Source of the DNA: Gimesia benthica
GTDB lineage: Bacteria; Planctomycetota; Planctomycetia; Planctomycetales; Planctomycetaceae
Assembly: GCF_009720525.1 (NCBI RefSeq)
Contig: NZ_CP043930.1
Location: 4,186,501 to 4,250,500, forward strand
DNA: 64,000 bases
Direction: 5' to 3'
Positions 20,316 to 48,893 of this stretch are shown here, one piece after another; within the stretch, counting starts at the first letter, position 1; every line of letters starts with the position of its first letter. The notes under the pieces are model-generated. The model saw nothing but the letters and a program-made list of their open reading frames with translations. It was not told the DNA's origin and made no database searches. The position numbers were made by a program, and so were the translations under genes.

Positions 20316-20347
20316 GAGGGTGAAGTCAGTCAGCTGGCGTCACCCTC
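20316..20347. terminator. Candidate bidirectional terminator between ThuA and TerC genes
   Basis: GAGGGTGA (20316-20323) pairs perfectly with TCACCCTC (20340-20347) over a 16-nt loop, between two convergent genes. The right arm overlaps the end of the terC-like gene. There is only a weak T-rich tail on the plus side (TTCCAGTTTCTT), so this is a moderate prediction. Confidence 0.4.
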
Positions 20348-21091
20348 TTCCAGTTTCTTATGCAGGTGCACCGGTTCGGCGTGAGCTTTCCGCATCCGCA
20401 GGTTGAGCATTTCTACCGTGACGGAGAAGGCCATCGCGAAATAGATGTAGCCTTTGGGAACGTGGACCTCGAAGCCTTCGACCATCAGTGTTACGCCGAC
20501 CATGATCAGAAAGGAAAGCGCCAGGATCTTGATGGTCGGGTGCCGATCTACGAACTCGCCAATTGATTTCGCAGCCAGCAGCATCACGCCGACCGAGAGA
20601 ATGATCGCAATTGCCATGATCGAGATGTGGTCGGCCAGTCCGACCGCGGTGATCACCGAGTCCAGCGAAAAGACGATGTCCAGAATGCCGATCTGCACCA
20701 GGACCGAACCGAAGGTCGCCGTCGCGGTGGATGAAGCCTTTTCGTGTGCCGTCGGTCCTTCCAGGCTGTTGTGAATTTCATGCGTCGCTTTGGCCAGCAG
20801 GAACAGGCCGCCGCCAATCAGGATCAGGTCGCGTCCTGAAAAATCGTAGCCGAACAACGAGAACCAGGGTTCGGTCAGCCCCATCACCCAGGAGATCGAG
20901 AACAGCAGCACCAGGCGGGCGATCATCGCCAGGCTCAAACCCAGTTTGCGTGCCAGGTCGCGTTCTTTCTCGGGGAGCCGTCCCACCAGGATCGAGATGA
21001 AAATAATGTTGTCGATGCCGAGTACGATTTCCAGGCTGGCGAGGGTTGCTAATGCGATCCAGGCCTCAGGACTGGCGATCCATTCAAACAT
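20330..21091 (-). CDS. TerC-family integral membrane protein
   Basis: 253 residues with about seven transmembrane segments and a family-typical opening (LEIVLGIDNIIFISILVGRLP) containing the conserved Asp in the membrane, and a second acidic motif, LDIVFSLDSVITAVGL. TerC/YgdQ proteins are linked to tellurium resistance and metal-ion (Mn, Ca) handling in the secretory pathway; the sequence does not tell which. A ribosome-binding site AGGAG lies 8 nt before the ATG. The cytoplasmic C-terminus is basic (NLRMRKAHAEPVHLHKK). No ter operon partner is adjacent. Confidence 0.92.
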   Translation of the reverse strand: MFEWIASPEAWIALATLASLEIVLGIDNIIFISILVGRLPEKERDLARKLGLSLAMIARLVLLFSISWVMGLTEPWFSLFGYDFSGRDLILIGGGLFLLAKATHEIHNSLEGPTAHEKASSTATATFGSVLVQIGILDIVFSLDSVITAVGLADHISIMAIAIILSVGVMLLAAKSIGEFVDRHPTIKILALSFLIMVGVTLMVEGFEVHVPKGYIYFAMAFSVTVEMLNLRMRKAHAEPVHLHKKLEEGDAS

Positions 21092-21444: not shown

Positions 21445-24400
21445 ATGCGCAACATGTTTCAATTAAAATGGTTATCTTCGCTGCAAAAGCAGCTGAAGTC
21501 GTCTCTTTCCACCAATATTCGTTCCCGTCGCAGTCGTCACCGGGGTTCCTGTACCCCCGTCAGAACGGGTGCCCTGTACCAGCAGACCGCTGAGAATCTG
21601 GAAGACCGTACACTTCTGACCGCCTTTACCGTAATGAACGCCAACGATTCTGGCACAGGCAGCCTGCGGTCAGCGATCGAAGCCGCGAATGCGAATTCGG
21701 GAGCGGATACCATTTCGTTTGACGCCGCTCTGGCGGGCCAGACGATCATCCTCACCGATGAGTTGCTGGTTACCGATGATCTGACCATTACCGGCCTGGG
21801 AGCCAGTCAGCTCACGCTGGATGGGGATAATAACAGTCGGGTCTTTCAGATTGATGATAGTTCCGGTTCAGGGATCATCACAGTTGAGATCACCGGGCTG
21901 ACGCTGACGAACGGGTATTCCACTGATAATGGGGGAGCCATCCTGAGTTCCGAAAACCTGATCGTTGAAGATTGTGTCTTTACGGGGAACACGGCCGACA
22001 AGGGCGGGGCGATTTATGATGATGCCAGTTCTTTAAGCGTTCGCGGCAGTCTGTTTTCCGGGAATATCGCAGCGACAAGTGATGGCGGCGCAATCTACCA
22101 TAGTGAAACGTTTCCCTATCCGAGTGACGAAGAACGGATGCTTATCGAAAACAGTCAGTTCACCACGAATTATTCCAAATTTTCTGGAGGGGCCGTTCTG
22201 CTGCGCGACGGGATCGGCATCATCGACGGCTGTCTGTTCACACAAAATACCGCTGATTTTCCCGGAGGCGCAATTCGAAATATCTTTGGCAGCCTGACTG
22301 TCACTGACAGTAGTTTTGTCAGGAATGCGACGGATTTCAGCGGGGCTGCTATTTCCAACGGAGGTGAGTTGGAGGTTCAACGGTCGACCTTTGAAGGAAA
22401 TACTGCTGAAGTGAACGGCGGGGCCATCTACAGCCAGGGCGCTGATGAGGTCACCATCCTGAACAGCACATTTTCCGGAAACAGCAGTGTGTTTGATGGA
22501 GGGGGGATTTTCGTTCTCGGCAACAAACCCGTTTCTGTCATCAACAGTACCATTGTTGATAATGAGTCTGGTCGGGGAGGCGGAATCTATCTGTTTGGAA
22601 CCGATCCGACCATGATCGCGAATACAATCATTGCCGGTAATCGAGCCAGTAACGATCCTCAGGTGTATGGCAGTTTCACCGGTACTGCCAACGTCATCCA
22701 GGCGAGTTTTGATGGCCTGCTGGATCCTGTTCTGAAAGACAATGGCGGCCCCACAAAAACGCATGCGCTGCTGCCCGACAGTATTGCCATTAACGCGGGC
22801 GATAATTCGGTCGCCACAGATGCCGGGCTGACGACAGATCAGCGGGGGACCGGTTTCGAAAGAGTCATTGATGGTCTGGTTGATATTGGGGCTTTTGAAG
22901 CCACAGTCACGGGACCAGACAGCCTGATTGTCGACACCACTTCCGATGTGGACGATGGTGATTATTCCGTCGGTCAGTTGTCACTCCGCGAGGCGATTCT
23001 GCTGGCGAATGCAAATTCCGGCGCAGATACGATTACCTTCGCTGCCGCCCTGGCCGGTCAATCAATCATCCTGACCGGTGAATTGCTGATCTCCGACGAC
23101 CTGACTATCACCGGCCTGGGAGCCGACCAGCTGACACTGGACGGAAATTACAACAGCCGGATTTTCAGGGTCGATAACGGGAATCAGTTCACCCGCATCA
23201 TGGTTGAAATTGAGGGCCTGACTCTGACGAATGGAAATTCGATCGAAACAGGGGCGACGCCCAATGGTTATGGCGGTGCGATCATGAGCTTCGAAGACCT
23301 GACTGTGAAAAACAGTGTTATTAAAGGCAATCACGCCCGACTGGGCGGCGGTGGCATCTACAGCAGTTATGCGTCCCTGACGATCGAAAACAGCCTGATC
23401 ACAGAGAATACGGCAGAAATGCATGGGGGGGCTGGGGTTTATTACTTGCTATCCGGTGGCATGGGCCTGTCTATCAGTGAGAGTACATTCTCATTCAACG
23501 CGACAGATCGCAGAGGTGGAGCCGTATTTTTTAATTCAGGTGTCGCGTCTATCCGGAACAGCACGTTCACGGAAAATTATGCCGGCGATGGTGGGGCAGG
23601 CGTCTATAATAATACCGGTTCAATGACAATTGAATCATCGACAGTCGCGAAAAATATTTCGGGATATAACGGTGGCGGGCTTTACAATTCAGGCGAGCTT
23701 TTCGTCTCAAACAGCACCATCTCTGAGAATAGTGCGCTGCATGTGGGCGCGGGGATTTACTCATTCACGTCGGCTCATCTGGAAGTCACCAGCAGCACGA
23801 TTGTCCTGAATTATGGCAGATCCAGTTTATCTCAAGGTGGCGGTATTTATGGCAGCAACACCACTGCCGTTTCGATAACTAACAGCATCGTCGCGGCGAA
23901 TAAGGCTGCCAGTAATCCCCAGATCGCAGGCCTCTATACCAGTCCCTACAACATTGTTACCGATGGTCTTTCCGGCCTGCTTGATCCGGTCCTGCGGGAC
24001 AATGGCGGGACCACGAAAACCCATGCCCTGCTGCCCGGCAGTGCCGCCGTTGATGCCGGTCGCAATCTGTATGCTACGGATGCAGGACTCTCGACCGACC
24101 AGCGAGGAACCGGTTATCTTCGAATTGCAAACGCAAAGATAGACATCGGCGCCTTCGAGACTCAGGTAGCCAGTCTGATCGTTGATAACAGCTCTGATAT
24201 TGATGACGGTGATTATACGCTCGGTCAGTTGTCACTCCGCGAAGCGATTGAATTGGCGAATTTGAATCCCGTGGTCAATTCGATTTCCTTTGCTGCCTCC
24301 CTGTCGGGACAAGCGATTGTGTTGTCTGAAGAGCTGATGATTACCGATCATCTCGTCTTGAGCGGTCCGGGAGCCGATCAGCTCACGCTGGATGGCAATG

Positions 24401-27400
24401 GCACCAGTCGGATCTTTAACATCGACAACGGGGATCCGGATATCAGTCTCACTGTAGAAATTGAAGGGCTGACGCTCACAAATGGAGATTCGAGTGAGAC
24501 GGGAGCAATGCCGGATGGTTTTGGCGGTGCCATTCTGAGTTTCGAAGACCTGACAATCAAAAACAGTATTCTCCAGGGGAATCACGCTCGGCTGGGGGGC
24601 GGGGGCATCTACAGCAGCAACGCGTCCCTGACGATCGAAAACAGCCAGTTCATAGAGAATACAGCAGGTCAGCAGGGGGGAGGGATCTATTACACGCAAG
24701 TCAGCGGAACCGGACTGTCTGTCGACCAGAGTACTTTTTCTACCAACTCCGCCGATCTTGAAGGGGGAGGCATCTATGTCAGACGGGGGGATGCCTCGAT
24801 TCAGAACAGTACGTTCACAGATAATTCGGCCGGTGTAGGCGGGGGAGCCGTTCTGAACGGGCTCCGGGGGACAACGACCATCAATGCCTCCACGTTTTAT
24901 AAAAATAGATCCGACTACAATGGGGGCGCTCTTTACAATTCAGGCGAGCTCTTCGTCTCTAACAGTACGCTTTCTGAGAACAGCGCCCGCGAACTGGGCG
25001 GGGGCATCTATTCCTTTACCTCGGCTCAGCTGGAAGTCATTAACAGTACCATCGTCGCCAACCAGGCGACGTCCGACATCTCTCGAGGCGGTGGCATCTA
25101 TGGGAGCAATACAACTCCTGTTTCCATATCCAACACCATCATTGCAGCCAATACGGCGGCCAATAATCCCCAGATCGCCAGCCTTTTTACAGATACCTTC
25201 AACATTGTTACCGATAGTCTTGCCGGACTGATTGATCCGGTCCTGCGCGACAATGGTGGGTTCACAAAAACGCATGCCCTGCTGCCCGGCAGTGCTGCCA
25301 TCAATGCCGGCAGTAATGCAGCAGCGATGAATGCAGGACTCTCAATGGATCAGCGGGGCACCGGTTACAGCAGAATCCTTGAGGGGACTGTGGACATTGG
25401 CGCCGTCGAAACCCAGCTCCCTTATTTCATGGTGGACGTCACTTCTGATGTTGATGATGGCGACTATTCCGACGGGCATCTCTCCCTGCGGGAAGCTGTC
25501 AAACTGGCGAATAATTCCCCAGTCACAAATCTGATTGTTTTTGACTCCTCACTGGCCGGCCAGACAATTCTGCTCCACAGCGAGCTGGTGATCTCGGATC
25601 ACCTGACCATCACCGGCCTGGGGGCAGACCAGCTTACCCTGGACGGCAATCACAACAACCGGATCTTTCTGATCGATGATGGCGATCTTGAGACCACGAT
25701 CTCGATCGAAATCGATGGGCTGTCCCTGGTCAACGGCAGCACTTACAGTACCGGTGGTGCCATTCTGAGTTTCGAAGATCTGATCCTTAAAAACAGTACC
25801 CTGAAAGGCAATCATGCCGAACTGGGGGGCGGCGGCATCTACAGCAGTCATGCGTCCCTGACGATTGAAAACAGCCTGATTACCGAAAATTCCGCAACCG
25901 CGCAAGCGGGAGGTGGAGTGCTGTATTTTCAACCTGGCGATAACGGTTTAACGATCAATCAGAGTACCTTTTCTCACAATACCTCAGGGGGTGACGGGGG
26001 AGCTGTCTATTTTGATGAAGGCGTTGCGTCAATTCGCAACAGCACCTTCACCGAAAACCAGGCAGAAGGGGAAGGGGGAGCGGTCCAGAATGGATTTGCT
26101 GGCTCGATGACCATTGAATCCTCCACCTTCAATCAGAATCGAGCAGAAGATAAAGGCGGCGCTCTCTCAAACCTGAATGAACTTTACCTGAGGAACAGCA
26201 CCCTCTCTGAGAATAGTGCCGACTATATCGGCGGTGGAATTTACACATATCGCCATACGACTCTGGCGATCGTCAACAGCACCATCGTTCTGAATCACGG
26301 GACATCTGACAGATCCTACGGGGGAGGCATCTATTCTACATCCCCGAACACCATCCAACTTTCAAACAGCATCGTCGCGGGCAATACTGCAGTGAATGAT
26401 CAGCAGGTCAAAGCTGATATTGCCGGTAGCTCGAATATTATTTCTGACAGCATTGCCGGACTGATCGACCCGGTCCTGCGAGACAATGACGGCTTCACAA
26501 AGACTCATGCATTACTGAGTAACAGCGCTGCGCTCGATGCCGGCGATAATACGGCAGCGACAGCTGCAGGGCTCACGACAGATCAACGTGGAACAGGCTT
26601 TGCCAGAATCCTCAATGGCACGGTAGACGTGGGAGCCTTTGAAGCAGCTGTAGCACACTTTCTCGTGGACACCACATCAGATGTCGACGATGGCGATTAC
26701 TCTGCCGGTCAACTGTCACTGCGGGAGGCGATCAAGCTGGCCAATGCTGCTCCCTCGGCGGACATCATCTCCTTCGATGCCTCACTGACCGGACAGACAA
26801 TTGTCGTGACTGCTGAACTGGTCATCTCCGATGATCTGACGATCATCGGACTGGGCGCAGATCAACTGACCATCAGCGGTGGCGGCACCAGTCGGATCTT
26901 AAACATTACAGATCACGACAGCTCCCATGCGCTCTCTGTCGAAATCAGTGGCCTGACCTTCACGAATGCCTATGCCACGTATGGTGCAGCGATTCTGAAT
27001 TATGAAACCCTTTTACTGAAGGAAACCATACTGACGGAGAATACGGCCACCCAGTCTGGGGCAGGGATCTATTCATCCCAGGGAAACGTTTTGATGACCG
27101 ATTCCAGCCTGACCTCAAACCACGCCGACAGGGGGGCAGGCATCTATAGTATCAGCGGGATTCTGACGTTGAATCACTCCACGATTTCAGGAAATGTCTC
27201 GACCAGGGAGGGGGCCGGAATCTATTACACTAATTTTGGTGGGGCAGAAACGACCCCGTCGGTCATCATTGAGTCTACCTTTACCGGAAATCGCTCTTCT
27301 GGCTCCGGTGGGGGCCTTTATAATTCGCGTGGTATTTTCAATGTGATCGACAGTACGTTTTCCAGCAATGAAGCGGTTTTCGGCGGCGGGATTTACAGTA

Positions 27401-29910
27401 CCACCAATACCGATGTTGGGAGTGTGTCAGTTGTCGGCAGCACATTCTCGGGAAATATTCAGGTGGAATCCGGCGGGGGCATCTACAACTCGGGAGCTGT
27501 CCTCTCCATTGAGGATTCATTCTTTAGTGGAAACGCGGCTGTGGGAGAAAATTCGACGGGCCTGGGTGGCGGTATTTATAGCGTCAATGGACCTCTAACG
27601 GTCACCCGCACGGAATTTTCCGGTAATACAGCCACACTTGGTGGAGGGATCTATTCCGGGCTCGATGGTAGCCTGTCGGTTACCGATTCGCTCTTTCTAC
27701 AGAATCAAGGACGATCAGGGGGCGGAATTCTTAACACGCGAGCTGCGATGACCATTCTTGGTTCCCGCTTTATCGAAAATCAGGCTTTGACGGATCCGGA
27801 ATATGCGTATCTGTCCTCAGAAGGAGGTGCCGTTTATCACTCTCCAGCACCAGGAACAGAAGCAGGAGAACAGGACGCGTTTATCACTGACAGCGAGTTC
27901 ACGGACAACTTTTCCGACACCACAGGCGGAGCCGTGAAACTCTACACAGGCTATATGACCATCGCAGACAGTGTCTTCGTCGGAAACAGAAGTGATCTGA
28001 CAGGAGGTGCCGTAGACAGTTTGCTGGGGCACCTGACAGTCCGGCAAAGTGCGTTTTCAGGAAATACGTCAGACACAAATGGGGGAGCCATCAGCAGTAC
28101 TGGGCCCCTGTTGCTCAGCGAAAGTACCATCGCTGAGAATAGCACAAAGTATTATGGCGGGGGAGTCTACCTCTGGGGGCAGGGAACGGCGACAATTGAA
28201 AACACGACTCTTTCTGGTAATCGGTCATTATCACGGGGCGGTGGCTTATATTCCACCAGCGATCAGCCTTTGACGCTGATTAACACCACGATTACCGGTA
28301 ATTCGTCGGGTCGCGGTGGTGGTGTTGCCAGCAACTCTGCGACACCCCTGGTGATCAACACCATTATTGCTGGAAATTCAGCAAGTCAGAATTCGCAGAT
28401 CGACGGCACTTATACGGGCGGTAATAACATTATCCAGGACAGTATCGCAGGCCTGCTGGACCCGGTGTTGAGAGACAATGGCGGCTCGACTCTAACACAT
28501 GCATTGTTGCTTGGAAGTGCCGCCATCAATGCGGGCAATAATACCGCAGTGAATGATGCTGGTCTCATGACGGATCAGCGCGGCACTGGTTTTTCTCGGA
28601 TTCAGGATGGAACGGTCGACATCGGGGCCTACGAAGTTCAGATCGATCATACCCAGGTCGACTTCCGTATTGTCAGTTCAAAAACCTCAACCGGATCCAA
28701 TGGTGAAGTCGACTCTCTCCCCGAAAGCAGGGAATGGATTGACGAATGGGGCGGCTACTGGCTGGAAATCTGGATCAGCACACCGGCTCCCTCAGATCGT
28801 GACATCCGGTCGATCACAATCGATTTCAGTTACAACACTGCCATCACGACTGCCACTGCAATCGAATATGGCGCCGCCTTTTCTACGAATCAGACCGGCA
28901 CCCTCAATGATCAGACAGGACGGGTTGAAAGTCTGTCTGCCGAGACCAGTCTTTCTGATGTGGGCTATGATCGCCCTGTCCTGTTTGCCCGCATCCGTTT
29001 TGAGCCAACGGTTGATGATGCCGTCAATCTGGATCGGGATGGCCAGAGCCTGAATCCGCAGGGTACTGCATACTCTATTGAGAACCTGGAAATTCTGGAT
29101 GCCGTGGGGGCCGTCAGGGACGATCAACTCATCCTGGGGGCCCAGGCACAGATCTTCGCCAACCCGTTCGACCTGAATGACGACGACAAGATCAACTACC
29201 GAGATCTGATTCTCTTTGCCAGTGTCTATCAGCACATACCCAGCCAGTCAAATTCGGAAAATGCCTGGTTCTCCGACTACAACCAGGATAATGCAGTAAA
29301 CTACCGCGATCTGATTCAGTTCGCTGTGAACTATGGAAAACATAAGTCGGGATCGACTCCGGTGCATTACCTGGCAAATTATCCCGACATCTGGAATCAA
29401 CTTATAATGGTTGATGCTCAACAGTCACCTCAAGAAACCGCAGCCAGGGTTAAGCAGTCTGAGGCCGAGACGGTTCTGGAATCGACGATTGCCGAGATCA
29501 GCCCACAACTGACGACACAGCAGCAGCAAACGCTCTCAGAGATCGACATCAAAGTCGTTGACCTTTCGGATGAGACGCTGGGCCGCGCCGCTGCCGGTAC
29601 GATTTACATCGACGTCAACGCCGCCGGCTATGGCTGGTTCATTGATACGACTCCCGCAGAGCACAGCGAGTTCTCTCAAGTCAGCGATCTGACCCTGATT
29701 GCACTCCCCGACAGTGAAGCCGCCGGGCTGATCGATCTCCGCACCGTGATCCTGCATGAACTCAGCCACCTGTTGGGTTATGAGCATAACACCAACGGTC
29801 TGATGCAGGAAACGCTGTCTCCCGGCGTTCGCTACCTACCGGACTGGGAATCCGCCACAGATGAGTTCTTCGGCGCACTGACCGACGAAACAGCCCCCGA
29901 AATTTTCTAA
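21445..29910 (+). CDS. Giant beta-helix surface protein with dockerin and metzincin-like domain
   Basis: 2821 residues. Order: a basic N-terminus with the planctomycete-type export/anchoring motif LEDRTLL (52-58); five modules of right-handed parallel beta-helix repeats (about 59-492, 493-909, 910-1326, 1327-1737, 1738-2397); each opens with a CSLREA-like block (LSLREAIxLAN) and closes with PVLRDNGGxTKTHALLPxS and DQRGTGxxRI-VDIGAxE. Then comes a beta-rich, cohesin-like segment (2400-2560), a dockerin pair (DLNDDDKINYRDL and DYNQDNAVNYRDL), and a last domain with HELSHLLGYEH (2771-2781) plus a Met-turn (GLMQE) of metzincin zinc proteases. Repeat units contain GGAIYS-type turns as in chlamydial polymorphic membrane proteins. 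Function likely adhesion or surface degradation; inference. Confidence 0.88.
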   Translation: MRNMFQLKWLSSLQKQLKSSLSTNIRSRRSRHRGSCTPVRTGALYQQTAENLEDRTLLTAFTVMNANDSGTGSLRSAIEAANANSGADTISFDAALAGQTIILTDELLVTDDLTITGLGASQLTLDGDNNSRVFQIDDSSGSGIITVEITGLTLTNGYSTDNGGAILSSENLIVEDCVFTGNTADKGGAIYDDASSLSVRGSLFSGNIAATSDGGAIYHSETFPYPSDEERMLIENSQFTTNYSKFSGGAVLLRDGIGIIDGCLFTQNTADFPGGAIRNIFGSLTVTDSSFVRNATDFSGAAISNGGELEVQRSTFEGNTAEVNGGAIYSQGADEVTILNSTFSGNSSVFDGGGIFVLGNKPVSVINSTIVDNESGRGGGIYLFGTDPTMIANTIIAGNRASNDPQVYGSFTGTANVIQASFDGLLDPVLKDNGGPTKTHALLPDSIAINAGDNSVATDAGLTTDQRGTGFERVIDGLVDIGAFEATVTGPDSLIVDTTSDVDDGDYSVGQLSLREAILLANANSGADTITFAAALAGQSIILTGELLISDDLTITGLGADQLTLDGNYNSRIFRVDNGNQFTRIMVEIEGLTLTNGNSIETGATPNGYGGAIMSFEDLTVKNSVIKGNHARLGGGGIYSSYASLTIENSLITENTAEMHGGAGVYYLLSGGMGLSISESTFSFNATDRRGGAVFFNSGVASIRNSTFTENYAGDGGAGVYNNTGSMTIESSTVAKNISGYNGGGLYNSGELFVSNSTISENSALHVGAGIYSFTSAHLEVTSSTIVLNYGRSSLSQGGGIYGSNTTAVSITNSIVAANKAASNPQIAGLYTSPYNIVTDGLSGLLDPVLRDNGGTTKTHALLPGSAAVDAGRNLYATDAGLSTDQRGTGYLRIANAKIDIGAFETQVASLIVDNSSDIDDGDYTLGQLSLREAIELANLNPVVNSISFAASLSGQAIVLSEELMITDHLVLSGPGADQLTLDGNGTSRIFNIDNGDPDISLTVEIEGLTLTNGDSSETGAMPDGFGGAILSFEDLTIKNSILQGNHARLGGGGIYSSNASLTIENSQFIENTAGQQGGGIYYTQVSGTGLSVDQSTFSTNSADLEGGGIYVRRGDASIQNSTFTDNSAGVGGGAVLNGLRGTTTINASTFYKNRSDYNGGALYNSGELFVSNSTLSENSARELGGGIYSFTSAQLEVINSTIVANQATSDISRGGGIYGSNTTPVSISNTIIAANTAANNPQIASLFTDTFNIVTDSLAGLIDPVLRDNGGFTKTHALLPGSAAINAGSNAAAMNAGLSMDQRGTGYSRILEGTVDIGAVETQLPYFMVDVTSDVDDGDYSDGHLSLREAVKLANNSPVTNLIVFDSSLAGQTILLHSELVISDHLTITGLGADQLTLDGNHNNRIFLIDDGDLETTISIEIDGLSLVNGSTYSTGGAILSFEDLILKNSTLKGNHAELGGGGIYSSHASLTIENSLITENSATAQAGGGVLYFQPGDNGLTINQSTFSHNTSGGDGGAVYFDEGVASIRNSTFTENQAEGEGGAVQNGFAGSMTIESSTFNQNRAEDKGGALSNLNELYLRNSTLSENSADYIGGGIYTYRHTTLAIVNSTIVLNHGTSDRSYGGGIYSTSPNTIQLSNSIVAGNTAVNDQQVKADIAGSSNIISDSIAGLIDPVLRDNDGFTKTHALLSNSAALDAGDNTAATAAGLTTDQRGTGFARILNGTVDVGAFEAAVAHFLVDTTSDVDDGDYSAGQLSLREAIKLANAAPSADIISFDASLTGQTIVVTAELVISDDLTIIGLGADQLTISGGGTSRILNITDHDSSHALSVEISGLTFTNAYATYGAAILNYETLLLKETILTENTATQSGAGIYSSQGNVLMTDSSLTSNHADRGAGIYSISGILTLNHSTISGNVSTREGAGIYYTNFGGAETTPSVIIESTFTGNRSSGSGGGLYNSRGIFNVIDSTFSSNEAVFGGGIYSTTNTDVGSVSVVGSTFSGNIQVESGGGIYNSGAVLSIEDSFFSGNAAVGENSTGLGGGIYSVNGPLTVTRTEFSGNTATLGGGIYSGLDGSLSVTDSLFLQNQGRSGGGILNTRAAMTILGSRFIENQALTDPEYAYLSSEGGAVYHSPAPGTEAGEQDAFITDSEFTDNFSDTTGGAVKLYTGYMTIADSVFVGNRSDLTGGAVDSLLGHLTVRQSAFSGNTSDTNGGAISSTGPLLLSESTIAENSTKYYGGGVYLWGQGTATIENTTLSGNRSLSRGGGLYSTSDQPLTLINTTITGNSSGRGGGVASNSATPLVINTIIAGNSASQNSQIDGTYTGGNNIIQDSIAGLLDPVLRDNGGSTLTHALLLGSAAINAGNNTAVNDAGLMTDQRGTGFSRIQDGTVDIGAYEVQIDHTQVDFRIVSSKTSTGSNGEVDSLPESREWIDEWGGYWLEIWISTPAPSDRDIRSITIDFSYNTAITTATAIEYGAAFSTNQTGTLNDQTGRVESLSAETSLSDVGYDRPVLFARIRFEPTVDDAVNLDRDGQSLNPQGTAYSIENLEILDAVGAVRDDQLILGAQAQIFANPFDLNDDDKINYRDLILFASVYQHIPSQSNSENAWFSDYNQDNAVNYRDLIQFAVNYGKHKSGSTPVHYLANYPDIWNQLIMVDAQQSPQETAARVKQSEAETVLESTIAEISPQLTTQQQQTLSEIDIKVVDLSDETLGRAAAGTIYIDVNAAGYGWFIDTTPAEHSEFSQVSDLTLIALPDSEAAGLIDLRTVILHELSHLLGYEHNTNGLMQETLSPGVRYLPDWESATDEFFGALTDETAPEIF

Positions 29911-30029
29911 AGATCGTTTCCTTTGAATTCCGGGGCCACTTCTGTGGAATGAATCGCCTGCGGGCCTGGTTTGCGTTAGAATCAGGGTTCACCTTTGGCC
30001 GTTTATTTATCCCGAGGAGTTCAAAACCC

Positions 30030-31022
30030 ATGCAGCTACGGAACCGCGCTCACTCCGAACCTGGCATCGCTTTCTCTCAAATCAACCGCTTCTGGCTGCT
30101 ACTGCTGATGGTAGTCTGTTGTTTCACGGGAAGCATCCCCGTGGACGCCGGCGAGGAAGATTCCATCCGGCATTCATTTCTGGGAGTGGGCAAGGCAAAC
30201 CGGGCGGTCATTATTGGAGAGGACGGGGCCGTAGAATGGAAGTTCGACATGCCCGCCAGCGATGGCTGGGTCCTGCCCAACGGCAATGTGTTGCTGGCCC
30301 TGTATGGGACCAAGGAGTTTCCCCATGGCGGCGTCGTTGAAGTCGACCGGAAAACAAAACAGATCCTGTTTCAGTACCAGGGGCAGCAGAAAGAAATCAG
30401 TACGGTACAACCTTTAGCCGACGGCACTTTCCTCGTCGCTGAACTCGGGCCCGAGCCGCGGGCCATTGTTATCAATCGCCAGGGAAAGATCGTAAAGACG
30501 ACGCCCCTGCAGTGCCAGAAGAATAATACCCATATGCAGACCCGCATGCTGCGTGTCCTGCCCAACGGCCATTACATCGCCCCGCATCTGCTGGACTTTG
30601 CCGTCAAAGAATATGACCCGGAAAGCGGTGCAGTGCTGCAGGTCATCGCGACCGACGATCGGGGCCGCGAGAAACGTGACTGGCCATTCACCGCGATCCG
30701 CCTTAAGAATGGCAACACGCTCATTGCCTGCACGAACGGGAACCGCATCATTGAAACCAATCCCCAGGGCAAAATTATCTGGAGTGTAACGAATGCCGAT
30801 CTGGGAGAAAATCTGTTTTACGATGCCTGTGGTGCCCAGCGATTACCCAACGGAAATACCGTGATTGCCAGCTATCGCGCCAAAGGGGACCAGGTCAAAT
30901 TGTTCGAAGTGACTCCGGACAAAAAAGTAGTCTGGCGTTATACGGGCATGAAATCCGGCTTTCATCACTTTCAGATCCTGACGACCAACGGCAAACCGGT
31001 TAAAGAGAATACCTGGAAATAA
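30030..31022 (+). CDS. Secreted beta-propeller (arylsulfotransferase/PQQ-like repeats)
   Basis: 330 residues after the start at 30030, chosen because GAGGAG lies 10 bases upstream and a signal peptide follows (FWLLLLMVVCCFTGSIPVDA). The mature part has six or so repeats of the type GWVLPNGNVLLAL, NGHYIAPHLLDFAVKEYDP, NGNTLIACTNGNRIIETNP and GKIIWSVTNADLG, with conserved PNGN turns and W-containing strands. Such propellers are related to the ASST and PQQ-like families. No catalytic His motif of arylsulfotransferase is apparent, so a binding or scaffold role is as likely as an enzyme. It follows the giant gene in the same direction by 119 bases and precedes a sulfatase gene by 19 bases. Confidence 0.75.
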   Translation: MQLRNRAHSEPGIAFSQINRFWLLLLMVVCCFTGSIPVDAGEEDSIRHSFLGVGKANRAVIIGEDGAVEWKFDMPASDGWVLPNGNVLLALYGTKEFPHGGVVEVDRKTKQILFQYQGQQKEISTVQPLADGTFLVAELGPEPRAIVINRQGKIVKTTPLQCQKNNTHMQTRMLRVLPNGHYIAPHLLDFAVKEYDPESGAVLQVIATDDRGREKRDWPFTAIRLKNGNTLIACTNGNRIIETNPQGKIIWSVTNADLGENLFYDACGAQRLPNGNTVIASYRAKGDQVKLFEVTPDKKVVWRYTGMKSGFHHFQILTTNGKPVKENTWK

Positions 31023-31041
31023 TCACGAAGGGAGACGGAAG

Positions 31042-32571
31042 ATGAATTCGCTGCGCCGCGTGCATTTCATCTTGATGACATGCTTGATTCTTCTGCTGAG
31101 CGGGAGTGCCTCAGCTGCCGAACGTCCCAATGTGCTGCTGATTCTCGTCGATGACCTGAAACCCGCGCTGGGCTGTTACGGCGATCCGATCGCCCGGACT
31201 CCTAACATCGATGCCCTTGCCGCTCGCGGCATGCGCTTCGAGCGGGCCTACTGTAACCAGGCTGTCTGCGCACCCTCGCGGTTCACCCTCATGCTCGGCG
31301 CACATTCCACATCGACCGGCTTATACGGACTGGGCAGTCAGTTGCGCGAAATCGTTCCCGACGCCGTCACCCTCCCGCAATACTTCGCGCAGCACGGCGG
31401 TTACCGCACCGAATCGCTGGGCAAAGTCTTTCACATCGGGCACGGCAACCACGGAGATCCCGCTTCTTTCAGCGTGCCGCATTTCCATGACAAGGTGATC
31501 GAATACCTCGACCCCGCCAGCACCCAGGGGGGAAAGCTCACCCGCGAAGAAGCCTACTTCACCAATCAGCACCTCGATCGCATTAAATCGCTCCCCCGCG
31601 GCGCCGCGTTCGAAGCACCGGATGTGGCGGACATTAAATACGCCGACGGCCGCGTCGCCGCCGAAACGGTCAAACGACTCCAGGCCGCCCACAATCGACG
31701 CAAGCAGGAGGAGACGCCGTTCTTCATCGTCGCCGGCTTTGCCCGTCCGCATCTGCCCTTCAGCGCACCAAAGAAATACTGGGACCTCTACGATCCGTCC
31801 GAACTGCCACTACCCGAAAATGAAGAACTCCCCGCGAACGCCCCGAAAGTGGCCGGCAAGCGGGGCGGCGAGATTACGAATTACAGCCCCGTGCCGACCG
31901 AAAGAAATGCCAGGTTCAGTGAAGACCTCAAGCGTCAACTGATTCACGGCTATTACGCCAGCACCAGTTTCGTCGACGCGCAGATCGGCAAGGTACTCGA
32001 CGAACTCAAACGCCTGGGACTTGCCGAGAACACGATCGTCGTCTTGTGGGGCGATCACGGTTTTCATCTGGGCGATTTGGGGATCTGGACCAAGCACACG
32101 AACTACGAACAGGCCAACCGCATCCCGATTCTCATCGCAGCTCCTGGAGTCACACAGCCCGACTCCGCCACACAGCAGCTCGCCGAAAGCGTGGACCTCT
32201 TTCCCACACTGGCCGAGCTCGCCGGCCTCCCGGCCCCCAAGGTGCCCCAGCCCCTCGACGGCGTCAGCCTGGTCCCGGTCCTGAAGAACCCCCAGGCCCG
32301 CGTGAGGAACCACGCTTATCACGCCTATCCCAAACAGAAACTGGGCCGCGCGATCCGCACCGAACGTTATCGACTGGTAGAGTGGAAGCCTTACAGGAAT
32401 TCCAATGCCCCCGCCGAGTATGAACTCTACGACTACCAGACCGACCCGTTAGAAACACGCAACCTGGCCCGGAAACAACCGGCGGTAGTAGAGTCACTCA
32501 AACAGATCCTCGCCAACTACCCCGAGCCACTCCCACGCAACGCCCAACCTGCGAAGAAGACTGTGCAGTAG
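31042..32571 (+). CDS. Secreted sulfatase (iduronate-2-sulfatase-like)
   Basis: 509-residue exported type I sulfatase. A signal peptide ends near residue 26 (SGSASAAERPNVLL). Metal ligands Asp37-Asp38 lie in LVDDLKPALGCYG. The formylglycine motif is CAPSR at 76-80. Active-site blocks WGDHGFHLGDLGIWTKHTNYE and [15 protein letters not shown] are conserved. It starts 19 bases after the propeller gene with GGGAGACGG as a ribosome-binding site, so the two are probably co-transcribed. The formylglycine-generating enzyme must be elsewhere. The sulfated substrate (algal polysaccharide, for example) is inferred from family ecology only. Confidence 0.93.
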   Translation: MNSLRRVHFILMTCLILLLSGSASAAERPNVLLILVDDLKPALGCYGDPIARTPNIDALAARGMRFERAYCNQAVCAPSRFTLMLGAHSTSTGLYGLGSQLREIVPDAVTLPQYFAQHGGYRTESLGKVFHIGHGNHGDPASFSVPHFHDKVIEYLDPASTQGGKLTREEAYFTNQHLDRIKSLPRGAAFEAPDVADIKYADGRVAAETVKRLQAAHNRRKQEETPFFIVAGFARPHLPFSAPKKYWDLYDPSELPLPENEELPANAPKVAGKRGGEITNYSPVPTERNARFSEDLKRQLIHGYYASTSFVDAQIGKVLDELKRLGLAENTIVVLWGDHGFHLGDLGIWTKHTNYEQANRIPILIAAPGVTQPDSATQQLAESVDLFPTLAELAGLPAPKVPQPLDGVSLVPVLKNPQARVRNHAYHAYPKQKLGRAIRTERYRLVEWKPYRNSNAPAEYELYDYQTDPLETRNLARKQPAVVESLKQILANYPEPLPRNAQPAKKTVQ

Positions 32572-43896: not shown

Positions 43897-45960
43897 TCAG
43901 AACAGGAAGAATTCCCGTTGAACGGTTTCCCATAACCGTCTGAGCCAGACATAGCCCAGCGAACGTTGGCCACAATCGATCTGAGGAAGTACTGATGCCC
44001 CCGGACGCAGCCCTTTCATCGATTCACGATCCAGTTTGACCGTGATCTGCACGGCGGGGGTTCCTTCCTGGTCAGGTTCCGCAGTGGCTGCGATCGATTG
44101 AATGGTGCCGGTATAAGTCTGGTCCGGATCTGTCAATAATAAGAAGCAGACATTGAGGGGCGTCTCACTTCGACGTTGCGCTTCCAGAACGTGTCCCACT
44201 TCAGAGTCGGGTACCTGCATTTTCAGTTCCCAGGGGCCGGCCAGGCGAGCTACGGTGAGCAGACGTTGTCCCCGCTGGACCGGGCGGGCCAATAGTTTCT
44301 CCTGCAGATCCCACGTAAGGACTTCTCCCGCGATAGGGCTTTTGAGCAGCAGGGCATCCTGTTGATTCTTCAGCAGGGTCCGCTGTTCGGTCAGACTTTT
44401 GAGTCGTTCGTTGAGTTCTTCCTGTTCCGCAGTCAGCCGGTTGGCGCGTTGCAGGGCATCGGCGTCGGTCGGATTGAGTTCGAGGCGTGCCGCCTGAATT
44501 ACGGCGAGACGTTTCTGGACCGTCTGGATCTCGCCCCGCACGCGACTGGATTCGAGTTCCAATTCCGAGTCACGCAGCGTGAGCAGTGTCTGATCTTGAG
44601 TGACTTCGTCTCCCTGTTGAACAAGGATCTGGTCGACGATGCCATCAGCGGTCGCGAAGATGTTCTGTTGATCGACGGGTTGTAGAGTGCCGGTTCCTTC
44701 TATCGTGAAGTCAGCAGGGATCAGGATCAGCAGGGCCGCGATCACGGCCAGTACCACCCCGGCAGTCGCCAGTTTCCGCCAGGTCAATTGTCGTTTGCGG
44801 ACAGGTGAATGCGACCAGAATTTAAGTACGGGAAAGAAAGGAAAGCTTTCATACTGTAGCGCATTATAGAGGGCCGTTCCCCCGTGCCGCGCTACCGCCA
44901 GAGAACGATCAAGAAAAGTCTGTCCGGCACTTGCTTCGTGAAACTGCTCGACAACGATCGCGCCAATCGTCTGTTCCGCGGGACTGCTCTGGTCATGCAG
45001 TCGGGTATTATTAACCGGTTCTGTTGATTCCTGGGTGATGTGTTTCAACGGGAAAATCATCAGCGAACGGGAGGCCGCCAGGTCAAGATAGGCGTGCAGC
45101 GGTTCGGTGATCTGCGGGGGATAGTTCTGATCCGCTTCCCAGTTCCAGTAAGGTCGATTCAAAGCCTGAATACGATTGACGAGTGTTTCCAGTCGCTGTA
45201 CCGATTCGGAACGGCGTTCAATACTCTCAACTCCACTGGCGGCCAGCAGGCGATAGGCAGAACCGCTCCGTTGCAGTACCGAGACCCGGTCACAGTTGAT
45301 GAGCAGCCGCCCTTCATTGGCAATGATGTAGGCCGTCTGTTGCGTATCCAGGTGCAGATGCACGTGTTCGGAGAATCGTTCGAACTCTTCCCAGAGCGTT
45401 TCCAGTTCCTGGAGTTTGAGCAACTGTTGATGCTGACAGAAGTCTTCTGAGATTTCACACAGCGCGCTGATGAACCGCAGGTAACCTTCCTGCGCCTCGT
45501 AAGAGCGGGGCGCGGCATGGATGATTTCCAGGATTCCGATGCTGGCAACCGAATCACGCATGATGCGGACGGGACAGAGAATCAGATTTTCTGAGAGGGG
45601 ATTCTTTCCCTGGTGTTCTGCCGACAATCCGGTTCCGGCAGCGATACTGGCAGGTTCGTTCTCAAGCAGGACTTCGTTGAGCAGCATCCGGTGTCGATGG
45701 ACCTGCTCCTGGCTGAGGCCCAGAATCGGATCGGTTTCGGGATTCAGCCCCTGTTGTTCAATGAGTTCGAAGTCCCTGTGCGAATCCGGAATCCAGAGCA
45801 GGGCGCCTCGCGCGCTGAGACCCTGGATGGCCCGCTCCACCAGTTCGGAATAGAACCGCTGACTCGAAATCTCGGTACGTGAGATTTGCGCCAGCCCCAT
45901 TACGAGCTCTTCGATCTCCTGCCAGACATTTTCGATGGAAGAGGATTCGTCAGTTGTCAT
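43897..45960 (-). CDS. GAF-domain-containing HlyD-type membrane fusion protein
   Basis: 687 residues. The N-terminal 390 are cytoplasmic and include GAF-like alpha/beta regions (GLSARGALLWIPDSH; LSENLILCPVRIMRDSVASIGILEI; DRVSVLQRSGSAYRLLAASG and PLKHITQESTE). One transmembrane helix follows at about 405-427 (GVVLAVIAALLILIP). The periplasmic part has a biotinyl-lipoyl hammerhead (TADGIVDQILVQQGDEV), a long coiled coil (ELELESSRVRGEIQTVQK) and a beta-barrel (ITVKLDRESMKGLRPG). It is an efflux adaptor whose cytoplasmic domain could sense a small ligand. No permease adjoins; the divergent TolC-like gene is the likely partner. Confidence 0.85.
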   Translation of the reverse strand: MTTDESSSIENVWQEIEELVMGLAQISRTEISSQRFYSELVERAIQGLSARGALLWIPDSHRDFELIEQQGLNPETDPILGLSQEQVHRHRMLLNEVLLENEPASIAAGTGLSAEHQGKNPLSENLILCPVRIMRDSVASIGILEIIHAAPRSYEAQEGYLRFISALCEISEDFCQHQQLLKLQELETLWEEFERFSEHVHLHLDTQQTAYIIANEGRLLINCDRVSVLQRSGSAYRLLAASGVESIERRSESVQRLETLVNRIQALNRPYWNWEADQNYPPQITEPLHAYLDLAASRSLMIFPLKHITQESTEPVNNTRLHDQSSPAEQTIGAIVVEQFHEASAGQTFLDRSLAVARHGGTALYNALQYESFPFFPVLKFWSHSPVRKRQLTWRKLATAGVVLAVIAALLILIPADFTIEGTGTLQPVDQQNIFATADGIVDQILVQQGDEVTQDQTLLTLRDSELELESSRVRGEIQTVQKRLAVIQAARLELNPTDADALQRANRLTAEQEELNERLKSLTEQRTLLKNQQDALLLKSPIAGEVLTWDLQEKLLARPVQRGQRLLTVARLAGPWELKMQVPDSEVGHVLEAQRRSETPLNVCFLLLTDPDQTYTGTIQSIAATAEPDQEGTPAVQITVKLDRESMKGLRPGASVLPQIDCGQRSLGYVWLRRLWETVQREFFLF

Positions 45961-46361
45961 CAGTTTGTCGAGTCAAAGGTTTCAGGTTGCCGCTGATACC
46001 AGCAGGCAGGGGACGCCAGTAAAGGTCCCTGTTTCCTACATCCTAACACGGCTGCTTCGCCAGCGTGGGGATCGAGCAAGAAAAAGCAGACAGCGCTGCC
46101 AAAGTATTTGGTGTACAACTTTAAATCATTGCGCAGCTTCGCTGATCGATGCAGGCTGCTGGGCTCTGGAACATTCACATAGTGTGCAAATAGGGTGAAT
46201 GTGTGACATGAGCTGATTGGGGCGAGTCTTTCGGTTGTCCGATTATATGGAATATTCTGAATATGACGAAAATTCGCTTTGGGTCGGCCCGGTTTCGAGC
46301 CGATGAGAGGAGAGAGTGTAAAGCTTTTTGGTACGTGGTCCAGACTGACCAGGGTTATTCA

Positions 46362-48893
46362 ATGAACCATTTCCTGACAAGATTGATGCTTCTGCTGGCG
46401 GTAGCTCCTACGCTACTGGGGCCAGGCTGCAGCAGTTTCATGAACAAGTCGATTCAAGACGAGTTTGTGGACAGTGAGGAAGTGTACCAGCAGGTCGCTC
46501 ACGAAATTGAGTATCCCAACGTGGATTCCATTGATGAAGGCGACACGATCGGCACAATGGCGCCTTCGAGTGTCGCCAGCTCTGCAACCCCCGATTACTG
46601 GGATCTTTCGTTGCAGGAAGCAGTCCGGATGGCACTGGAGAGTTCCAAGGTGCTGGGTGATGTCGGTGGTGTTTCATTAAATACGCCGGCTGCAGTGACC
46701 ACGAAATACGATCCTGCCATTACCGAGTCGGACCCGCGATATGGCGTGCCTGCGGCACTAAGCGCCTATGATGCCACGCTGTCAGCGAGTACGTTTTTTG
46801 AGAAGAATGACAAGGCGTTGAACAACGTCTTCTTCGGCGGTGGTACTCGTCTGTTGCGACAGGATGCAATGGTGATCCAGGCGCAGCTGACCAAGCGTGC
46901 CATGACCGGTACTGAATTTACCCTGCGGGACTACATCGACTACGATGCTAATAACTCGCCCGGTAACCAGTTCCCCCACGCCTACCAGAACAATATCGAA
47001 ATGGAATTCCGTCATCCGCTGTTGCGGGGAGGCGGAATCGATTTCAACCAGCTGGCCGGACCGAGTAACACGCCGGGAGTGATCAATGGTGTGATCATCG
47101 CCCGCATGAATACTGACATCAGTCTTGGCGAATTCGAGATTGCCGTTCGTAACCTGGTGAGCGACGTTGAGAACGCTTACTGGGATTTGTATTTCGGGTA
47201 TCGTGATCTCGATGCGAAAATCATGGCCCGCGATTCCGCACTGGAAACCTGGCGGCGGATTCATGCGTTGTATGAAAATGGACGTCGTGGCGGCGAAGCC
47301 GAAAAAGAAGCGCAGGCCCGCGAACAGTATTTCCGCTATCAGGCCGAAGTGGAAAATGCACTCAGCGGTCGACTGCTGAATGGCACGCATACCAACAACG
47401 GCAGCCAGGGCGGAACCTTTCAGAGCAATCATGGTGTGTATGTTGCGGAACGACGCCTGCGGAAGCTGATGGGCATTCCGATCAATGACGGTCGACTGAT
47501 TCGTCCAGCGGATGAACCATCGCTGGCTCGTGTTGATTTCGACTGGGAAGAGACCCTGGTGGAATCGCTGGACCGTCGCCCCGAAATTCGTCGTCAACGC
47601 TGGGCGATCAAAAAATACGAACTGGAACTGCAGGCCAACGAAAACTTCCTGCTGCCCGAACTCGACCTGATTGGCCGGTATCGCTGGCGTGGCTTTGGTA
47701 AGAACTTCCTGGCCGAAGGTTCCAATCCCGGACCTTACGAAGGTGCTTTGAATACCCTGTTTGACGGGAATCTGCAGGAATGGCAGCTGGGTCTGGAATT
47801 CTCTGTACCCCTGGGACGTCGGCAGGCGCATGCAGCCATGCGAAACGCAGAACTGCAGCTGGCACGCAGCCGGGCGATCCTGCATGAACAGGAACGAACT
47901 GTGGTGCAGAGTCTGAGTAACGCCATCGCCGATGTCGATCGTGCGTATGCCGTAATGCAGACATCCTTCAACCGTCGTCATGCTGCCCGACAGGAAGTGG
48001 CTGCAGTGCAGGCGGCTTATGAATCAGACAATGCGACCCTGGACCTGCTGCTGGAAGCACAGCGTCGTCAGGCGGAAGCAGACAGCAGTTACTACCGTTC
48101 GCTGGTCGAGTATGCCCTCGCGATTAAGAACGTGCAGTTTGAGAAAGGCTCGCTGCTGTCATATAACAACATTTTCCTGGCTGAAGGGGGCTGGCCTCAG
48201 AAAGCCTACATGGATGCTGCAGAGCGGGATCGTCTGAAAGGGCGTGTCCGGAACATCGCGGCAGCACCACTCTATACGGATGAGATTTCGCGGGGTGTTT
48301 ATCCTCAGCTGCTGACCCCGGGCGAAGCACCACCCGAGCCGGTAGCTCCTGCTGCGGAAGCGATGCCTCAGACACCAGCACCGCCGGTACCCGGCGTGAA
48401 GAGTGAATCTGCGGCAGCACCCGTGAATGAAAAAATTCAGTCGATCGATTTCAGCGAACCAGCGGAATCCGCGGCTGCCATCCAGAATCTGCAGGGAACT
48501 CAACCGGGTCCCGGTGGCACTCCTTTCATTCCTCCGGCACCCACTCAACGTGAAGCATCTGCGACACTGAAGGCTGCCTTCCTGGGAACGGAAGCTGATT
48601 CGTCCGCTGTGACGCTTCCGCTGTCGGAACCGGCTCCTCAGCCGGGAGCGAACTTTAACTCCTCGCCAGGTGTCGAGTTCGAACCGAGCCTGCGAGCAGC
48701 CCGACAGCACCAGATTCCGGAATTCCCGGTACGTGGCCGTGCGGGAGAACAGGATCCCTTTAAAAATTACCGGAACTCTGGCCCCCGCTGGGAACCCGTG
48801 GCGATTCCCGCTGAGCAACAGCGGAATTTGAGGGATTTTTCGGGCGAAGTAAAGCGATTTCCCCTGAAAGAGGCAGATTCATCAGACAGATGA
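46362..48893 (+). CDS. TolC-like outer membrane efflux protein
   Basis: About 843 residues from the ATG at 46362, which gives a lipoprotein-like signal (LMLLLAVAPTLLGPGCSSF). The outer-membrane efflux domain has the family's paired helical hairpins and strands (ISLGEFEIAVRNLVSDVENAYWDLYFGYRDLDAKI; AVQAAYESDNATLDLLLEAQRRQAEADSSYYRSLVEYALAIKN). It is much longer than a typical TolC (about 450-500), because of an N-terminal insert and a long Pro/Ala-rich C-terminal extension after residue 640. It lies divergently from the GAF-HlyD adaptor with about 400 bases between them, suggesting a two-part efflux system. The start is not certain; 46263 is another option. Confidence 0.87.
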   Translation: MNHFLTRLMLLLAVAPTLLGPGCSSFMNKSIQDEFVDSEEVYQQVAHEIEYPNVDSIDEGDTIGTMAPSSVASSATPDYWDLSLQEAVRMALESSKVLGDVGGVSLNTPAAVTTKYDPAITESDPRYGVPAALSAYDATLSASTFFEKNDKALNNVFFGGGTRLLRQDAMVIQAQLTKRAMTGTEFTLRDYIDYDANNSPGNQFPHAYQNNIEMEFRHPLLRGGGIDFNQLAGPSNTPGVINGVIIARMNTDISLGEFEIAVRNLVSDVENAYWDLYFGYRDLDAKIMARDSALETWRRIHALYENGRRGGEAEKEAQAREQYFRYQAEVENALSGRLLNGTHTNNGSQGGTFQSNHGVYVAERRLRKLMGIPINDGRLIRPADEPSLARVDFDWEETLVESLDRRPEIRRQRWAIKKYELELQANENFLLPELDLIGRYRWRGFGKNFLAEGSNPGPYEGALNTLFDGNLQEWQLGLEFSVPLGRRQAHAAMRNAELQLARSRAILHEQERTVVQSLSNAIADVDRAYAVMQTSFNRRHAARQEVAAVQAAYESDNATLDLLLEAQRRQAEADSSYYRSLVEYALAIKNVQFEKGSLLSYNNIFLAEGGWPQKAYMDAAERDRLKGRVRNIAAAPLYTDEISRGVYPQLLTPGEAPPEPVAPAAEAMPQTPAPPVPGVKSESAAAPVNEKIQSIDFSEPAESAAAIQNLQGTQPGPGGTPFIPPAPTQREASATLKAAFLGTEADSSAVTLPLSEPAPQPGANFNSSPGVEFEPSLRAARQHQIPEFPVRGRAGEQDPFKNYRNSGPRWEPVAIPAEQQRNLRDFSGEVKRFPLKEADSSDR

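Follow-up and report, generated by a model that had tools for sequence, protein, structure and literature searches.

Planctomycetes carry many giant genes for whose products we know of no route out of the cell. The closest described counterpart of the exporter genes considered here is the secondary SecA_DEAD/HlyD/Peptidase_M50 locus of Kamneva et al. 2015 (PMC4452313), for which a broader role is given as unknown in the accessible part of that paper. The gene set described there (SecA-like, GAF-HlyD, M50-HlyD, and HlyD) is the same as that found beside giant genes in the present analysis, whereas the accessible text names no cargo, LEPR-type tag, or giant metzincin protein. Our literature search found no paper that connects the SecA locus with the LEPR motif and none assigning a cargo to the SecA_DEAD/HlyD/M50 locus. 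The planctosome hypothesis of Andrei et al. 2019 (PMC6461901) proposes that freshwater planctomycetes build complexes of cohesins and dockerins that include metallopeptidases, and thus shares cohesin, dockerin, and metallopeptidase with the protein described below, but its parts reside on separate proteins and in another lineage; the search returned no paper naming Gimesia together with dockerin. Cellulosomal cohesins and dockerins have the cohesin fold as well as the duplication of the Ca loops in common with this protein, whereas here both domains occur in cis on one chain.

The gene under study belongs to Gimesia benthica and lies in a window of 64,000 nucleotides, the whole stretch of DNA that was analyzed (Table 1). 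The sequence-only reading had proposed an LEDRTLL motif, five beta-helix modules, a cohesin-like segment, a dockerin, and an HExxHxxGxxH site with its Met on 2821 residues, and this architecture was recovered throughout. The highest 17-residue Kyte-Doolittle mean within leader residues 1-51 was 0.31. The motif following this leader resembles that of LEPR-XLL proteins (NF012209), very large repeat proteins that likewise carry a short LExRxLL motif close to the N-terminus, although the planctomycete LEDRTLL form escapes this model, which matched neither the window N-terminus nor the planctomycete leaders.

Table 1. Positions of the giant gene, its parts, and related genes; window coordinates unless another sequence is named
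Feature	Position	Strand	Remark
Giant gene, Gimesia benthica	21445..29910	+	2821 aa in one uninterrupted frame
Basic N-terminal leader, residues 1-51	21445..21597	+	without hydrophobic segment
LEDRTLL motif (LEPR-XLL-like tag), residues 52-58	21598..21618	+	
Beta-helix module 1, residues 59-485	21619..22899	+	
Beta-helix module 2 (CSLREA + coils + choice-of-anchor Q)	22900..24159	+	modeled
Beta-helix module 3	24160..25410	+	
Beta-helix module 4	25411..26643	+	
Beta-helix module 5, longer, residues 1734-2397	26644..28635	+	
Cohesin domain, residues 2402-2573	28648..29163	+	fold search of tail model
Dockerin, two Ca loops	29167..29346	+	DLNDDDKINYRD and DYNQDNAVNYRD
Matrixin-like metzincin domain, residues ~2653-2815	29401..29889	+	profiles, predicted helix/strand order
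HELSHLLGYEH zinc site, residues 2771-2781	29755..29787	+	
Met-turn methionine, residue 2787	29803..29805	+	six residues past zinc site
GAF-HlyD adaptor, candidate exporter part	43897..45960	-	~30% identity across its length to homologues that neighbor family genes of other planctomycetes
TolC-type outer membrane efflux protein (OEP), candidate exporter part	46263..48893	+	divergent to GAF-HlyD gene
Second LEDRTLL gene	L164:7088-12058		equivalents in L163, L165, L166, L199-L205
Broken-frame giants	G000:C1 1387563-1395877 (L136), 1396093-1410040 (L137), 2069290-2083705 (L138), 5807298-5824774 (L139)		
Broken-frame giants	G000:C1 6764861-6778326 (L140), 5103212-5107572 (L146), 7647045-7648213 (L141), 5966157-5971126 (L143)		

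In an NCBIfam scan, NF041518 was matched in five stretches (1.2e-85), together with POMP repeats, CSLREA, and rhombotarget A, and the choice-of-anchor-Q ends of the five modules fell at residues ~482, 902, 1319, 1730, and 2394. With module 2 as the reference, modules 1, 3, and 4 aligned to it at 48-65% identity, and we therefore regard modules 1-4 as tandem duplicates. The model of module 2 (pLDDT 74.7, falling towards the module end) consists of regular three-strand coils, and its closest solved fold in the PDB is Rhombotarget A. Although Rhombotarget A is the nearest relative of these modules both as a solved fold and as a sequence model, no cohesin-dockerin-metzincin tail was seen in the matched model, and it is known here as a beta-helix model only. 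An autotransporter or POMP reading was rejected, since the modeled tail shows no C-terminal beta-barrel and folds as cohesin, dockerin, and a domain of mixed helices and strands; the Pfam scan of the window protein matched no autotransporter model.

Structure prediction of the tail, which the sequence-only reading had put forward as a check, yielded a confident AlphaFold2 model from an alignment of 75 relatives (mean pLDDT 91.5, pTM 0.81). Tail-model residues 6-177 matched solved cohesins, with a best Z of 13.3 (4uyq, 136 residues, rmsd 2.5), the best 48 rows of a second-look structure alignment were cohesins throughout, and Foldseek agreed. The cohesin-like segment thus has a real cohesin fold in the predicted structure, and the earlier reservation that it might be another fold falls away. 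By sequence profile, PF00963 gave no match to the window protein at E 0.1 and matched 13 of 30 relatives (best 4.8e-6). The adjoining dockerin has two 12-residue Ca loops of the type I pattern, D-x-N-x-D with D at position 12, and PF00404 aligned to residues 2575-2623 with an E of 1.8e-4 and 22.1 bits against a cut-off of 22.9 when the tail was scanned alone, and with 25.2 bits, above the cut-off, in the whole-genome search; the family dockerin profile also matches cellulosomal dockerins. Genome-wide, all five dockerin matches and the single cohesin match fall within the family that shares this cassette; this, like the large paralogous family itself and the link of the N-terminal motif to an orphan export locus, was beyond the reach of the sequence-only reading. 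A cellulosome-like scaffold was rejected, as these models found neither a separate scaffoldin nor a dockerin enzyme in the genome. The linker between cohesin and dockerin measures only ~3-5 residues, so that canonical docking in cis looks awkward and the putative contacts would rather form between family members. With the shared cohesin-dockerin-peptidase tail, such contacts would also have an example beyond cellulosomes.

The last domain had been claimed to be a zinc metalloprotease, and this claim stood as regards the motif, the M10 and karilysin profiles, and the predicted helix/strand order, which in the tail model fits a metzincin, but the window protein alone stayed below the PF00413 cut-off (17.9 vs 24 bits; the relative L115 scored 30.7). 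Peptidase_M10 was matched by 28 of 30 tail relatives and by 26 of the 27 diverse members of the metzincin unit, among which H, E, H, and Met are invariant across phyla; a chance zinc motif is thereby excluded. The wider metzincin family aligned with karilysin at 2.1e-6. The window tail shares the active-site helix and Met-turn with karilysin and the matrix metalloproteinases (M10), although detectable similarity is confined to that stretch. In the whole-tail fold searches, cohesins fill the matches listed, with no metzincin row among them. Together, the profiles and the modeled secondary structure support a matrixin-like metzincin with a putative metzincin fold. In at least one paralogue of the same genome (5103233), the zinc site is lost, so catalysis is not essential in every member.

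The window giant is not a unique protein, as it represents one of about a dozen family members per Gimesia genome. Besides one short fragment, the 8.03 Mb genome holds 13 proteins with the tail or with parts of it, and sister Gimesia genomes hold 5-19 each, on frames of up to ~7900 residues. All members in this genome, the short fragment aside, carry an upstream LExRxLL-type motif, and several paralogue frames are broken. Across 17 Gimesia genomes, LEDRTLL occurred 176 times vs 4 for the reversed pattern, and in nine single-contig genomes at least 70 of 111 LEDRTLL occurrences had a cassette on their own strand no more than 25 kb downstream, compared with 1.6% of random points, which together exclude a chance tag. 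The remaining occurrences show that the tag is also used apart from the cassette. Some planctomycete proteins possess cohesin and dockerin but no peptidase, and the metzincin unit in turn occurs without cohesin or dockerin in proteins of Proteobacteria, Desulfobacterota, and Opitutales; judged by these sequences, the cohesin-dockerin and the metzincin are two separable units. Outside planctomycetes, the metzincin unit is located either C-terminally or behind an N-terminal stretch of a few hundred residues, and several relatives bearing it match NF012209 (LEPR-XLL).

Gene-neighborhood analysis of the relatives revealed GAF-HlyD, M50-HlyD, short SecA-like ATPase, and HlyD genes beside the non-planctomycete giants. 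At least one exporter gene adjoins the giant in 17 of 22 non-planctomycete metzincin loci, a set that includes several closely related proteobacterial loci; of the five loci without such a gene, some have little flank. In all 13 Gimesia genomes examined, a LEDRTLL-cohesin-dockerin-metzincin gene and a SecA-like gene are direct neighbors in divergent orientation, these 13 neighborhoods being one inherited arrangement and not 13 independent events. M50-HlyD was present in 13 of the 14 genomes reached through giant loci. Among 274 sampled Gammaproteobacteria, 37 have M50-HlyD, and all three genomes with a strong metzincin, one of which is the center of the sample, have it within ~5.5 kb. Most gammaproteobacterial M50-HlyD loci occur without a metzincin; the idea that export by this route requires the peptidase was therefore rejected. 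Some of these other loci adjoin giants, part of which have LEPR-like leaders. This linkage of tagged giants with the SecA-like/GAF-HlyD/M50-HlyD/HlyD locus is new, and it is a property of the family rather than of the window gene, whose own neighborhood has no adjoining exporter gene, the nearest candidate parts (GAF-HlyD and TolC-type) being 14 kb away. In the genome as a whole, SecA-like, M50-HlyD, and GAF-HlyD genes are each present twice.

The tagged N-termini themselves are too weakly hydrophobic for a signal peptide, with a median maximum 17-residue hydropathy of 0.68 among 57 sequences; the single one exceeding 1.6 belongs to an ORF that probably starts later and was called with extra upstream sequence. 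This weak hydrophobicity and the locus linkage together suggest that the tag serves the SecA-like/HlyD/M50 route. We accordingly put forward, tentatively and with slightly less than even confidence, that the SecA-like/M50-HlyD/GAF-HlyD/HlyD locus forms a secretion system in its own right, reserved for LExRxLL-tagged giants, in which the tag would replace the signal peptide and a co-inherited metzincin would mature the cargo. If LExRxLL is such an address label, the export route of the giants and the cargo of the SecA_DEAD/HlyD/M50 locus both become testable. Near the gammaproteobacterial exporter genes, two giants show variant leaders, LEPRMMFDG and LESQERRILFSAD (L197:11164-17238, L189:13821-18428), so the tag may extend beyond LExRxLL.

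Computation directly established the order of the domains, the fold of the cohesin, the conservation of the zinc site, the cassette and tag common to the family, and the exporter linkage in relatives, and around them we propose the following account, which we judge evenly balanced between right and wrong: the window protein may be a secreted, tagged giant that leaves by an accessory exporter and carries a beta-helix stalk, cohesin-dockerin contacts, and a zinc peptidase tail. The basic leader ending in LEDRTLL, which has no Sec-type hydrophobic signal, would send the giant to this exporter, in which the short SecA-like ATPase would work with an M50-HlyD protein of the membrane, adaptors of the GAF-HlyD and HlyD types, and a TolC channel in the outer membrane. 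Once exported, the five stacked right-handed beta-helix modules may form a long surface stalk, and cohesin and dockerin would make Ca-dependent contacts, most likely between family members. The matrixin-like domain would act as a zinc peptidase in the maturation or release of its own chain and its siblings, or on an external protein.

An external target is also central to a planctosome-like surface array for digestion, in which the beta-helix would bind polysaccharide or matrix, the peptidase would digest external protein for nutrition, and cohesin-dockerin pairs would hold several chains together. The complexes proposed by Andrei et al. 2019, the catalytic residues conserved across phyla, and the presence of polysaccharide-active proteins among beta-helix folds are all consistent with such an array; however, each peptidase is fused to its giant and not docked, some paralogues without the zinc site retain the rest of the cassette, and the metzincin unit near the N-terminus of some giants of other phyla is unlike a catalytic tip on a stalk, so that we consider the array unlikely. 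The self-processing adhesin suggested by the sequence-only reading, in which a C-terminal metzincin would cut the chain that carries it and a cis lock between cohesin and dockerin would hold or release the tail, is in keeping with the conserved zinc site that relatives with the cassette carry on one chain with cohesin and dockerin, but no cleavage site was identified, the linker is very short, and the metzincin occupies either chain end in related proteins, which makes this explanation quite doubtful. An ordinary repeat adhesin, whose tail would be a structural or anchoring module with a mostly non-catalytic zinc site, would fit the degenerate zinc sites of some members and the commonness of giant adhesin-like surface proteins in planctomycetes, but is improbable given the four invariant residues in the 27 diverse metzincin units.

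Several further features of the loci were recorded. The giant gene is flanked by a TerC-family gene, a Mala_s_1-like gene (probably a propeller), which begins 38 bases downstream, and a sulfatase (window 20330-21091 on the minus strand and 29949-32571 on the plus strand), none with an evident link to the giant. In the Gimesia SecA-like locus, a second LEDRTLL gene is located downstream of the family gene, usually encoding 1634-1715 aa where complete, and its counterpart in this genome exhibits a different metzincin-type site, HEAGHFFGLWH. Of the tagged giant genes of this genome, at least eight span two or three successive frames, the window gene being intact; in the one case compared (L143 vs L164 of a sister genome), a short stretch of G has lost a single base, reflecting either sequencing error or real decay. 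The metzincin unit also occurs in gammaproteobacterial frames of 10327-12249 residues (G179:C1:2470064 and 1863154, G149:C121:33970).
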